From assembly GCA_905234755.1 (NCBI GenBank), contig CAJOIT010000005.1, forward strand, positions 62,001-126,000: DNA of 64,000 nt. The letters run 5' to 3'. This DNA is from an uncultured Bacteroidales bacterium. Lineage in GTDB: Bacteria > Bacteroidota > Bacteroidia > Bacteroidales > ML635J-15. This document shows, piece after piece, positions 29,046-45,917 of this stretch (the first letter of the stretch is position 1; every line of letters begins with the position of its first letter). Below the pieces are notes generated by a model. That model searched no databases. It worked only from the letters and a program-made list of their open reading frames with translations, and was not told the DNA's origin. Both the position numbers and the translations under genes were made by a program.

Positions 29046-29205
29046 AGATTGTGATTTGACTAAAAATACCTACGCATTTTCTCAAAATACAATATAAACT
29101 CTTTGAAACAAAAACAGCAGCCGACTATTTGCCGACCGCTGTAAATCGCAAATCTTGTATTTTGCTCCAGCCCACGGAAACCTTGCCCTGCGGTGCCTTT
29201 GTATG

Positions 29206-29234
29206 CACTGCCGCGCACACTCCGCACGGCAATG
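29206..29234. other. Hairpin in the GC-rich segment after the second FISUMP gene
   Basis: CACTGCCG / CGGCAATG (8 bp, one mismatch) around CGCACACTCCGCA. The 225-bp gap 29046-29270 has no gene. Its GC-rich part shares the short string GCACACTCCG with the hairpin region after the other FISUMP gene (44046-44055). Confidence 0.45.
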
Positions 29235-29270
29235 TTCCCGCTCCTCTGTATGTTTCGGAGGGAGAACAGG

Positions 29271-30845
29271 TTAGTTCTGGGACTGGCAAACAGCGCGAAC
29301 GGATTGCCCGTTGAAACGGCTGCTGCCGTTCACGCCGAAAGTGCCAGAATTGAAGTAGAGGTCCCTCGCGTCGGTCGGGTCGCCCGTGCCGAGCGAACTC
29401 GACCAGTAGTAGCCGTAGGAACCGGCATTGCCGAGACTACTGTCGTAGCGGCGGCCAGCAGCGGGCAGGAAGATTGAGTTGCCACTGTAACGACCAGTGA
29501 ACAACTTTCCTGCTACGCCGTTCTGGGTTGTCCATATTACCGTGCAGTTATGATACAGTTCCTGAAAATCTTCTGCAGTAGGCATTCTCCAGCCTGCACC
29601 CCAGTTGGCTGTTGCAGCATCATCGCATGCTTCAAGAATAGTCAAATTGTCAGTAAATAACAGATTATAACCATAATTTGCATTGTTGCAATATTTTGTG
29701 AGTCCGTAGTATTCCCAACCATTAGAATACCAAGAACGACAATATCTATAGGTGGTTTTGTCATATTTTTCCTTTGCTGTTGTTTCGCCCCAAGCGAAAT
29801 AATCGCCATATTCATCTGGACTATTTGCTCCTACATTGCAGGTTGCCCATAGTGTTCTACTTGGCAGTCCAAGGTCAACCCACTCGTAACCGTTTAAAAT
29901 ACCACTTGTTGTAAACGACACAATGTCACCATATGCCGTTCCTAACGAATTGGTAGCGTATGCTTTATAATAATAGGTTGTACTTGCGAAAAGACCTGTC
30001 AATGCCTTTGTAAAACTGCCAGTTCCACTACCGCTCTGCACATTCTGCGACAAATCGCTTGCACTTGTACCATAAACAAATCCACACTCGGTTACGGCTG
30101 TACCACCTCCATCAGAAATAAATCCAACTAGAGTAGCCGTAGAACTTGCAACATTTGTTGCATTTCTTGTCTGCACATTTGGTGCTCCAATGCCTGTGGT
30201 AAACTGCATAATCTCACCCTCCGCCGTTCCAAATGCATTCTTCGCAAATGCCTTGTAGTAGTATGTTATATTACCACTCAAACCAGAAATAGGCACAGAG
30301 AAAAGGCTGTCTGGTGTACCTGTATATTGGGCGGTTTCCTTATTGCTCATTCTCTCCGAAGTGCTGTAATAGAATCCGCATAAGGTTATTTCGGAGCCAC
30401 CGTTGCTTGGTATGGCAGCATTAAGGGTTGCGCCATTTCCTGTCACATCGGAAGCAGGACGGGTTTCGACCGATGGTCCCGCCGCTTGCAAGGTAAATGT
30501 CAAGGTTTCGCCCTCTATCTGACCTGCACTACATTGGATATATGCCTTGAAATAGTAGGTTGTACCGGGCAAAAGTCCAGTGACCTTGGCAGAAAAGCGG
30601 GCGTTGGCATTAGCCTTTATTTCCTTGGGACTGCTCATTTCCGCCGATACATCGTAGAAGAATCCGCACTTGTAATCTTCTCCATCGCTCATATTTCTAA
30701 CCTCGCCATGCAGTGTAGCATAATCACCCTTAATTCCTGTAGCATCCTTGGTAACAACATTAGGCACTATTGGGTCTTCCTTGCAACTCGATAATAACGC
30801 CACCATCATAATAATTGTGGCAAAAATGTAAAATTTTGACTTCAT
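29271..30845 (-). CDS. FISUMP-domain lipoprotein with three FnIII-like domains; probable DGR target
   Basis: A 524-residue lipoprotein. The lipobox is LLSSC at about 17-21 of the signal MKSKFYIFATIIMMVALLSSC. Three FnIII-like repeats follow (about 30-310), each with a Y(Y/F)KA(Y/F) strand (TTYYFKAYIQ, ITYYYKAFAKN, TTYYYKAYATN). The C-terminal FISUMP (Fibrobacter succinogenes major paralogous) domain starts at GYEWVDLGLPSRTLWATCNVG and contains FAWGET and ANWGAGWRMPTAEDFQEL. The last 68 residues (from SIFLPAAG) match the variable region of the DGR target at 44124, with variable aromatic, Gly and Asp residues at template-Asn positions. It is probably surface-exposed with a ligand-binding C-terminus. 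It has a long structured leader and no nearby -7 element. Confidence 0.85.
   Translation of the reverse strand: MKSKFYIFATIIMMVALLSSCKEDPIVPNVVTKDATGIKGDYATLHGEVRNMSDGEDYKCGFFYDVSAEMSSPKEIKANANARFSAKVTGLLPGTTYYFKAYIQCSAGQIEGETLTFTLQAAGPSVETRPASDVTGNGATLNAAIPSNGGSEITLCGFYYSTSERMSNKETAQYTGTPDSLFSVPISGLSGNITYYYKAFAKNAFGTAEGEIMQFTTGIGAPNVQTRNATNVASSTATLVGFISDGGGTAVTECGFVYGTSASDLSQNVQSGSGTGSFTKALTGLFASTTYYYKAYATNSLGTAYGDIVSFTTSGILNGYEWVDLGLPSRTLWATCNVGANSPDEYGDYFAWGETTAKEKYDKTTYRYCRSWYSNGWEYYGLTKYCNNANYGYNLLFTDNLTILEACDDAATANWGAGWRMPTAEDFQELYHNCTVIWTTQNGVAGKLFTGRYSGNSIFLPAAGRRYDSSLGNAGSYGYYWSSSLGTGDPTDARDLYFNSGTFGVNGSSRFNGQSVRAVCQSQN
29277..29475 (-). other. Variable-region-like 3' segment (VR2)
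   Basis: Aligned by eye to the template at 43653-43855. Long stretches agree (GACCAGTAGT, GGAACC, GGCAGGAA on the plus strand) and many differences fall on template adenines, but there is a one-codon deletion and several non-adenine differences. So its donor is a related template outside this window, or the copy has drifted. Confidence 0.5.
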
Positions 30846-43652: not shown

Positions 43653-43855
43653 GGGCAGACACGCACACGGGCCGTACGGATTGTCCGTTGTTGCGGTTGT
43701 TGTTGTCATCCGTGTTGCATTCGTCCGAATTGAAGTTGAGTTTCCACGCGTTGTTCGGGTTGCTGGTGTTGAGCGACGACGACCAGTAGTTGCCGTTGGA
43801 ACCAGCATTGTTGAGCTCGTCATTGTTGCGGTTGCCGGCGGCAGGCAGGAAAATA
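43653..43855 (-). other. DGR template repeat (TR)
   Basis: A 203-bp copy of the variable region 44132-44334, same strand, no gaps. Thirty positions differ; 29 are adenines in the template (coding-strand sense) and one is a G (43821). The template holds 57 adenines, so about half are altered in the variable region. Translated in register it has 19 Asn (AAC/AAT) codons, and every one differs in the target. The 28 bp at the downstream end (43653-43680) are GC-rich and identical to the target, as expected of an IMH-type initiation site. It belongs to no plausible gene. Confidence 0.93.
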
Positions 43856-44006
43856 CAACTCGTTTGCGTCGGCGGTACTGTTGTTTTCGAGGGCAAAGGA
43901 ATGCCTTGTGCAAGCCAACGCCCCCATCGATGCTATCCCACACATTTGCCTTGTGGGCCGACCGCCTATGAACTTGCCTTTGTCTGTGTTTTTGCCATAT
44001 ATCGGA

Positions 44007-44093
44007 CGGCGGACAGCCGTGCAGATTGCCGTGTGCGGCTGGGTAGCACACTCCGTGTGCACCGCACCCGACACTCAGCCCCGCTGTCCGCCG
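44007..44093. other. Triple-nested hairpin between VR and TR
   Basis: The outer stem is CGGCGGACAGC/GCTGTCCGCCG (44007-44017, 44083-44093), the middle GTGCGG/CCGCAC (44033-44038, 44062-44067), and the inner GCACAC-tcc-GTGTGC (44046-44060). It starts about 30 bp after the stop of the DGR target gene. DGR variable regions are often followed by hairpins needed for efficient homing. The gap 43856-44123 has no gene. Confidence 0.7.
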
Positions 44094-44123
44094 ATTTTTG
44101 CCAGTTTGCGACAGACTGAAGGC

Positions 44124-45119
44124 CTAGTTCTGGGCAGACACGCACACGGGCCGTACGGATAGCCCGTAGTAGCGGTAGTAGTAGTCAACCGTGTAGCAAT
44201 CGTCCGAACGGAAGTAGAGTAGCCACGCGCCGATCGGGTAGCTGGTGAAGAGCGACGACGACCAGTAGTAGCCGAGGGAACCAGCACTGTAGAGCTCGTA
44301 ATCGTAGCGGTAGCCGGCGGCAGGCAGGAAAATAGAGTTGCCGTTGCTTCCCGTGAACTTTTCTCCGTTTACACCGTTCTGGGTTGTCCACTCGTGGGTG
44401 CAGTTGTCGTACAGTTCCTGCATTTCGGAGAGCGTTGGCATTCGCCAGCCTGCGCCCCAGTTGGCGGTGGCGGCATCGTCGGAGGCTTCCAAGGTGGTAA
44501 GCGCATCGGTAAAGCCATTGTTTCCATACTCTGCATTGTTGCAGTACTTGGTGAGGCTGTTCCATCCACTATAGTTTTCGTCATTTTCATTATACACACA
44601 ATACCTGTAGGTGCTCCAGTTGTAGGTTGTCTTGGGGGTGGTTTCGCCCCAGGCAAAATAGTCGCCGTAGCCTTCGGGGGTAGTTGAACCAACATTGCAG
44701 GTCGCCCACCTTATGCCGCTCGGCAATCCGAGGTCAACGAACTCGTGTCCGTTAAGGGTGTTTGGTGGAGTTGGTCCAGGTGTCGGACTTGGACTTGGCG
44801 AAGGATTAGTGCCGTTGCTTGTCCACTGCGCGTACAAGGTCATATCGGCGGTGGCGGTTAGGGTATATCCATCGGGATAAGATGCACCACTTCCGCCCTG
44901 CACGGTGTTCCATCCTGTAAAGGTGTAGCCATCATAGGTGAAGGCATTGCGTGTGAGTGCCTGTGCTTCGCCTTCGGTAAAGGTCTGTGGCTGCATTGTG
45001 CCTGTACCGCCGTTGGGATTAAATGTTACGGTGTAAGTCTCCTTTTTCTTACAACCGCTTATCGCCAACATTCCTGCCAAGGTAACAATGGCGAAAAATA
45101 AGAATATACTTCTTTTCAT
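44124..45119 (-). CDS. FISUMP-domain lipoprotein, target of the diversity-generating retroelement
   Basis: A 331-residue lipoprotein with lipobox AISGC (about residues 19-23). An InlB-type B-repeat follows (about 28-100: YTVTFNPNGGTGTM, YTFTGWNT, ADMTLYAQW), then a Pro-Ser linker (PSPSPSPTPGPTPP), then a FISUMP domain from NGHEFVDLGLPSGIRWATCNVG to the end, with YFAWGETTP and ANWGAGWRMPTLSEMQEL. The last 68 codons are the DGR variable region, rich in Tyr like an engineered binding surface. The likely role is a surface receptor whose ligand specificity is diversified by mutagenic retrohoming; the ligand is unknown. It has its own -7 element at 45158. No reverse transcriptase or Avd-type accessory gene lies nearby. 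Confidence 0.92.
   Translation of the reverse strand: MKRSIFLFFAIVTLAGMLAISGCKKKETYTVTFNPNGGTGTMQPQTFTEGEAQALTRNAFTYDGYTFTGWNTVQGGSGASYPDGYTLTATADMTLYAQWTSNGTNPSPSPSPTPGPTPPNTLNGHEFVDLGLPSGIRWATCNVGSTTPEGYGDYFAWGETTPKTTYNWSTYRYCVYNENDENYSGWNSLTKYCNNAEYGNNGFTDALTTLEASDDAATANWGAGWRMPTLSEMQELYDNCTHEWTTQNGVNGEKFTGSNGNSIFLPAAGYRYDYELYSAGSLGYYWSSSLFTSYPIGAWLLYFRSDDCYTVDYYYRYYGLSVRPVCVSAQN
44132..44334 (-). other. DGR variable region (VR) at the 3' end of the FISUMP gene
   Basis: Partner of the template 43653-43855, covering about residues 262-329 of the target protein from SIFLPAAG to the last residues. Compared with the template, Asn codons became Tyr (12 times), Asp, Ser, Leu, Phe, Ile, Gly and Arg; Lys became Leu, Gln became Leu and Asp became Val. 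The unchanged scaffold (GYYWSSSL, SVRPVCVSA) keeps the fold. It ends 5 bp before the stop codon TAG. Confidence 0.93.
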
Positions 45120-45157
45120 CCTGTTTTTTTTAAATTATACTTAAAACTAATATTTTG

Positions 45158-45165
45158 CAAATGTA
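45158..45165 (-). promoter_or_regulatory. -7 promoter element for the DGR target gene
   Basis: TACATTTG on the minus strand, about 39 nt before the ATG at 45119. Confidence 0.55.
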
Positions 45166-45200
45166 ATGATTTTCTGGGAATACATTATACGAAAATGATT

Positions 45201-45917
45201 TTACTGATATTTTGATAAGTAACCGCCATTAAGGAATTCATCAACGGTTACCGATTCGAGCTTTCTATCGTCGAGAAGCCAGATATGGGAACAATACTTG
45301 GCAGCAATTTCCAAATCGTGGCACGAGAAAATTATGCATCGGTTTTCCTCCGAGGCTATTTTCTTCAGGTCGGACAAAAGTTTGCGTTTTGCAAAGAAAT
45401 CAAGGAAAGCAGTCGGTTCATCGAGCAGAATCACAGGCGTTTGCTGAACCATAGCCCTGCAAATCATAGCCTTCTGCCGTTCACCATCGCTTATTTCTGC
45501 AATCATAGAATCGGCAATGTCCGACAAACCGAATTTCTGTATAAAGTCCTCAATGATAGCATTATCGGCTTTTGTCCTGCGGTCGAAAATGTTAGTATAT
45601 GGACTTCTGCCAACAGCAATAAGGTCTCGGATGCGCATATTCAGAACCGCCTCAACCTTTGACGGCACAAAACTTATAAATCGGGACTTTTCGCGTGCCG
45701 AAATCTTTCCAAGCGGCACACCACAAATGCTTATTTGTCCACCAAGAGGCTTTTTCACACCAATAAGCGTATTCAGCATAGTGGTCTTACCTGTACCATT
45801 TCGTCCGACAAGACAAATAAAGTCGCCTGCATTTGCCGACAAATCAACCGCTTGCGACACCAACGGACGCTTATGCCCGAAAACAAGGCCTTCAATATTT
45901 AGAACCACCTCTCCCAT
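45201..45917 (-). CDS. FecE/BtuD-type ABC transporter ATP-binding protein
   Basis: A 238-residue ATPase driving uptake of an iron-chelate, haem or corrinoid. Walker A is GRNGTGKTTML, the Q-loop region is FVPSKVEA, the signature is an ISDGERQKAMI variant of LSGGQ, Walker B is VILLDEPTAFLD, and a switch His is in FSCHDLEIA. The start overlaps the permease stop (TAATG). It is the last gene of a three-gene importer operon (binding protein-permease-ATPase). Confidence 0.93.
   Translation of the reverse strand: MGEVVLNIEGLVFGHKRPLVSQAVDLSANAGDFICLVGRNGTGKTTMLNTLIGVKKPLGGQISICGVPLGKISAREKSRFISFVPSKVEAVLNMRIRDLIAVGRSPYTNIFDRRTKADNAIIEDFIQKFGLSDIADSMIAEISDGERQKAMICRAMVQQTPVILLDEPTAFLDFFAKRKLLSDLKKIASEENRCIIFSCHDLEIAAKYCSHIWLLDDRKLESVTVDEFLNGGYLSKYQ

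Follow-up and report, generated by a model that had tools for sequence, protein, structure and literature searches.

A template repeat (TR2) and a variable repeat (VR2) at the 3' end of a predicted lipoprotein gene together form a true template/target pair of a diversity-generating retroelement (DGR), but neither an RT nor an accessory gene accompanies them, and the single DGR RT of the genome is encoded elsewhere. As far as sequence comparison can tell, it is probably the distant RT that diversifies this RT-less cassette, acting in trans. More tentatively, the locus may exemplify a naturally split DGR, in which a portable RT-less module, consisting of a hairpin, a 5' RNA element, the TR and a terminator, recruits a distant RT via an undescribed template RNA that recalls that of retrons. 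The DNA analyzed is a stretch of 64 kb (the window) on contig C5 (187 kb) of the genome of a rumen gut bacterium (G000; 3.31 Mb in 14 contigs, with an estimated completeness of 100% and an estimated contamination of 0.39%), and the distant RT locus lies on contig 3 (C3) of the same genome. The features of the locus are listed in Table 1.

Table 1. Features of the TR2 locus, with positions in the window.
Feature	Position	Strand	Evidence
Segment missing from sister species G022 at the orthologous position (TR2 with its 5' element and terminator, and the dispersed repeat next to it)	43505..44025	-	Locus comparison
Likely transcription terminator of TR2 (hairpin and subsequent TTTT)	43577..43620	-	Single-strand fold
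P1 3' arm (ACUUGCU), just 3' of TR2	43642..43648	-	Covariation and swap test
TR2, template repeat (invariant donor)	43653..43855	-	Repeat alignment; 19 Asn codons
5' structured element of TR2 RNA (P1 5' arm and helices P2-P4), ~117 nt	43862..43978	-	RNAalifold, pair counts, covariance model
P1 5' arm (GGCAAGU), pairs with 43642-43648	43972..43978	-	Covariation and swap test
VR-distal inverted repeat with arms of 32 nt and a gap of 23 nt; hairpin/cruciform 3' of VR2	44007..44093	-	Inverted-repeat search
VR2, variable repeat, 3' end of the lipoprotein gene	44132..44334	-	29/30 differences at TR2 adenines
Target gene, predicted lipoprotein, 331 aa	44124..45119	-	ORF; Pfam/NCBIfam matches to one List_Bact repeat and, at the C-terminus, to Lcl_C/FISUMP

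Pairwise alignment of TR2 and VR2 is ungapped over 203 nt and contains 30 mismatches. On the coding (minus) strand, 29 of these are located at an adenine of the template, which has 57 in total, and one at a template G (43821/44300); the probability that at least 29 of 30 mismatches fall on A by chance is 2e-15. The changes at template adenines comprise 20 A>T, six A>G and three A>C substitutions. Codon positions 1 or 2 take 28 of the 30 changes, and all 19 Asn codons of the template are altered, 12 of them to Tyr. The final 29 nt of the repeat are identical in TR2 and VR2, as in an IMH-like 3' end, and VR2 ends 5 nt ahead of the stop codon. The realignment and the strand-aware recount reproduce what a sequence-only reading of this DNA had reported, i.e., the gap-free 203-bp alignment, the 30 differences with only one of them off template A, and the alteration of every Asn codon. 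The adenine-specific transfer from TR to VR into the FISUMP tail of the lipoprotein that was proposed on this basis is further supported by the VR-distal inverted repeat, the conserved template RNA and the C-type-lectin-like model discussed below. The same reading had regarded the locus as a DGR; this stands for the TR/VR pair, but not for a complete element, since the window contains no RT or accessory gene and the sole DGR RT is on C3.

Both C-terminal domain matches of the lipoprotein score below the curated cut-offs of Pfam/NCBIfam, but the assignment is supported by a structure model. The FISUMP domain alone, modeled with 40 sequences, reached a pLDDT of 93.9. A VIA search with this model gave the C-terminal domain of Legionella Lcl as the best match (Z 7.1), and most other matches were C-type lectins with middling Z values of 5-7 and 3-21% identity; Foldseek gave no significant match for the same model. 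An earlier model of the full protein, based on nine sequences, was poor (pLDDT 51), which makes the fold search with it meaningless. Thus, the FISUMP domain is predicted by a high-confidence model to have a C-type-lectin-like fold, the usual scaffold of DGR targets, as judged from VIA Z values of 5-7 and the Lcl_C matches below cut-off, and the VR is located at the 3' end of a gene encoding such a fold. The lipoprotein may bind a ligand, as the sequence-only reading had also proposed. The inverted repeat 3' of VR2 has counterparts: a comparable long hairpin, with quite different arm sequences, is found downstream of every DGR target examined at the chromosomal loci of this RT lineage, and it is absent downstream of L031, a FISUMP gene without other signs of a DGR.

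No RT or accessory gene, Avd or other, was detected in the 64-kb window by inspection of ORFs and by tblastn, and hence the TR2 cassette has no DGR-type RT. Remnants of such genes adjoining TR2 can be rejected, as the best tblastn matches had E values of 2.0 and 0.19 and neither is near TR2. Searches of the whole genome with the RVT_1 and the DGR-RT profiles each gave a single RT, i.e., that on C3, which argues against a second RT; this count, like the linkage of C5 to C3, rests on a draft of 14 contigs that is 100% complete by estimate. The C3 RT retains the motifs IGNLTSQ and YVDD. It is preceded by a 178-aa MutS-domain-I-like gene and a template repeat (TR1), in this order, and TR1 and the RT ORF lie within one open frame (L052:9455-10975). 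The similarity to MutS domain I has an E value of 0.0058, which is under the Pfam cut-off, and neither NCBIfam nor PHROGs provides a name for the C3 protein. Such a gene adjoins the RT in all eight RT-linked chromosomal relatives tested, and the 178-aa protein is encoded just 5' of the template RNA at 8/8 chromosomal (L111-L118) and 22/23 phage loci (L175-L197). The targets of TR1 on C3 are two protein kinase-FISUMP fusion genes, whose VRs differ from TR1 at adenines in 24/24 and 24/26 cases. Besides these two genes, the RT locus (G000:C3; L052:27-8560) carries genes for a PP2C-like protein, two caspase-domain proteins and an FHA protein, a set that is reminiscent of the hypermutated conflict/sensor systems described in PMC10907252. 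The genome has ~30 matches to the FISUMP tail. Many congeners contain DGR-like FISUMP targets and no DGR RT. A fragment in G008 (G008:C208:2825-2935) matches the final 36 residues of the DGR RT and is perhaps a remnant.

VR2 differs from TR2 at one position that is not an adenine in the template and from TR1 at 23 such positions (out of 55 mismatches), so that TR1 is rejected as its template and VR2 was evidently written from TR2. TR1 and TR2 are 83% identical, flanks included, and judging from these comparisons the target of TR2 has kept pace with its template as TR2 diverged from TR1. Non-adenine divergence within the TR2-VR2 pair (1/146) is within the range of the RT-linked TR1 pairs (0/146 and 2/146), which suggests that the last transfer, i.e., homing, was recent, even if a count of a single site carries a wide error. 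In eight other genomes with the C3 RT lineage, one template each was found, always beside the RT. When 198 relatives and 393 Bacteroidales genomes were searched by covariance, no RT-less template besides TR2 was revealed; with the strict filters and the few candidates scored per genome, this absence is weak evidence. That TR2 is so far the single RT-less case counts against diversification in trans. The window contains a second FISUMP target gene (29274-30845, minus strand; VR about 29280-29486, hairpin about 29170-29245) without a matching template. Together with L025, L026 and L027, this gene forms a third VR group, in which 41 of the 54 variable columns coincide with adenines of TR1. The group differs from TR1 at 19 fixed positions, which points to a third template; such a template for the targets L025/26/27/33 was sought in the G000 assembly and not found.

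TR2 and TR1 were aligned with the templates of eight rumen/gut Bacteroidales genomes with related RTs, which show 60-91% identity to the C3 RT. Unaided, RNAalifold folded these ten templates into a stem, P1, that joins a segment ~120 nt 5' of the TR to the sequence immediately 3' of it, and into helices P2, P3 and P4 within the 5' element. For the 24 named pairs, 92.9% of the cells of the alignment pair, vs. 26-54% once the partners are slid by 1-3 columns. Both sides have changed in 16 of the 24 pairs, and 36 cells have changed on both sides where 12 are expected, a number not reached in any of 500 shuffles. When the nine RT-linked sequences were used to build a covariance model, with TR2 left out, this model matched positions 43978-43862 with 89.4 bits (E 1.1e-18), and the fold P1-P4 is common to all nine RT-linked chromosomal templates tested. 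In TR2 the P1 stem is complete, with one G-U among its seven pairs, and 151 of 182 P1 pairs form with the own partner vs. 131.6 when arms are swapped (0/5000). The sequence UUCAYAGG is conserved next to P1 and is the first candidate for the site at which cDNA synthesis is primed. Of 23 related phage RTs, most are likewise preceded by the 5' element in the position expected; when phage sequences are included (n = 25), 112 both-sided changes are counted vs. 31 expected, in an alignment that was fitted to the model and is therefore biased towards it. Rfam gave no family up to an E value of 1 for positions 43400-45300 of the window, and no description of the 5' element with its closing stem was found in the searchable literature, the scope of which excludes most subscription papers. 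Thus, the 5' template RNA element and the stem closing across the TR seem to constitute a conserved, hitherto undescribed fold. On the 3' side of TR2, the hairpin with TTTT is followed by a dispersed repeat and then by cinA (42171-43430). The promoter/terminator scan, which had a loop limit of 3-8 nt, does not include this hairpin. The repeat (43505-43577) is intergenic, has many copies in the genome, and adjoins cinA in several congeners.

In two congeners (G016 and G023), cinA abuts transporter genes with no lipoprotein gene in between. In the sister species G022, the orthologous lipoprotein gene and its hairpin are present and the TR2 segment is absent, and its VR is a clean copy of neither TR2 nor TR1. 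In another sister species, G007, the orthologous lipoprotein gene adjoins an RT, an accessory gene and a TR. From these arrangements it follows that lipoprotein, template and RT have, by sequence comparison, been shuffled among loci within one genus. The G007 locus also lends weight to the main alternative, i.e., that a formerly complete DGR produced VR2 in cis and was subsequently stripped of both RT and accessory gene, leaving TR2 and VR2 as recent fossils. Degenerate DGR loci, in which parts of the machinery are absent or broken, have been reported in Thiohalocapsa PB-PSB1 (PMC10907252), and partial DGRs in archaea (PMC4372165); the absence of the TR2 segment from G022 is in line with such decay, and a recent local loss of the RT would leave TR2 and VR2 equally similar. 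Still, we consider this course of events rather unlikely. No trace of an RT or accessory gene is left in the window, an intact RT is still present in the genome, and, with the RNA fold intact and only 1/146 non-adenine sites different, the loss must have been both very recent and clean.

Diversification of TR2 in trans by the C3 RT, in contrast, is consistent with a VR2 that fits TR2, one intact RT elsewhere, no local remnant, a preserved RNA fold and recent homing. In the mechanism proposed, the locus on C5 contributes the lipoprotein gene with VR2, the downstream hairpin and its own template. Transcription of TR2 would yield an RNA of ~400 nt, ending near 43573, whose helices P2-P4 and closing stem P1 correspond to the ones in RT-linked templates. 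The RT produced from C3, probably together with its MutS-N-like accessory protein, would bind this RNA and copy it in trans, making errors opposite adenines, and the resulting cDNA would replace VR2, thereby altering residues on the C-type-lectin-like surface, possibly up to the present.

It is very unlikely that the RT serving TR2 is encoded not on C3 but on a prophage, on a plasmid or in genomic DNA that is missing from the assembly. There are indeed related phage RTs that share the RNA element, and the third target group without a template in the assembly indicates that something is missing or lost; yet, the element of TR2 (89 bits) is closest to the C3/G007 type, with phage elements scoring 15-38 bits, TR1 and TR2 are similar including their flanks, and the assembly is complete by estimate. 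Least probable of all is an artefact of assembly or binning, with C5 and C3 stemming from different organisms or an RT beside TR2 having been dropped from the draft, as the estimated contamination is low, TR2 lies in the interior of a 187-kb contig in a cinA neighborhood common to congeners, and the dispersed repeat adjoining it has copies elsewhere in the genome, on other contigs.

If TR2 is indeed copied in trans by the C3 RT, the minimal unit of hypervariability would consist of a hairpin at the target and an RNA module a few hundred bases long, while the enzyme would come from elsewhere. One RT could then serve several independently evolving templates, which would account for a possible origin of remote targets with their own templates, show what RT-anchored surveys miss, and offer a compact design by which chosen targets could be diversified in trans.

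Mtd of Bordetella phage BPP-1 has a C-type-lectin-type scaffold, a feature it shares with the FISUMP target. The BPP-1 system further resembles TR2/VR2 in the adenine-specific transfer from TR to VR, the position of the VR at the 3' end of the gene and the stem-loop 3' of the VR, and the predominance of A>T and Asn-to-Tyr changes in VR2 is similar to the measured AAC bias of the BPP-1 enzyme (PMC12875486). The structured part of the BPP-1 RNA is the spacer on the 3' side of the TR (PMC12875486, PMC8867640), whereas the structure in TR2 RNA is 5' of the TR with a stem that closes across it. Also, BPP-1 has an adjacent RT and the accessory protein Avd, while TR2 has no adjacent RT and the C3 RT locus encodes a MutS-N-like accessory protein. 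The conserved RNA thus offers a testable account of how RTs of the C3 lineage recognize their template without a 3' spacer structure of the BPP-1 type.

In retron RNA, pairing of a1 and a2 forms a closing stem. The retron msr-msd RNA is similar to TR2 RNA in topology only, with a 5' structure, a template, paired flanks and an RT downstream (layout partly from PMC8867640). The products are different, i.e., msDNA in retrons and a mutagenized cDNA for homing in DGRs, and the C3 RT scores 34.7 with the retron St85 model, the cut-off of which is 235.

The closest systems are the FISUMP DGRs of rumen Bacteroidales and phages (L111-L118 and L175-L197), which share the RT lineage, the RNA element, the accessory protein, the FISUMP targets and, at the chromosomal loci, the VR-distal hairpin. 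Where RT, accessory gene and TR were all found, the three are together, and only TR2 lacks both RT and accessory gene. Remote targets of DGRs and proposed action in trans are already known (PMC10907252, PMC4891356, PMC7517822, PMC4372165). Like VR2, the remote targets in Treponema denticola, cyanobacteria and Thiohalocapsa PB-PSB1 are far from the RT, and action in trans was proposed for them. In the accessible text, these cases are VRs that use an RT-adjacent template, targets whose core components are gone, or loci in a degenerate state, whereas the TR2 locus brings its own diverged template, which VR2 follows. As far as could be checked, both the conserved 5' template RNA and a locus that lacks an RT but has a diverged template of its own, which its VR follows, are new.
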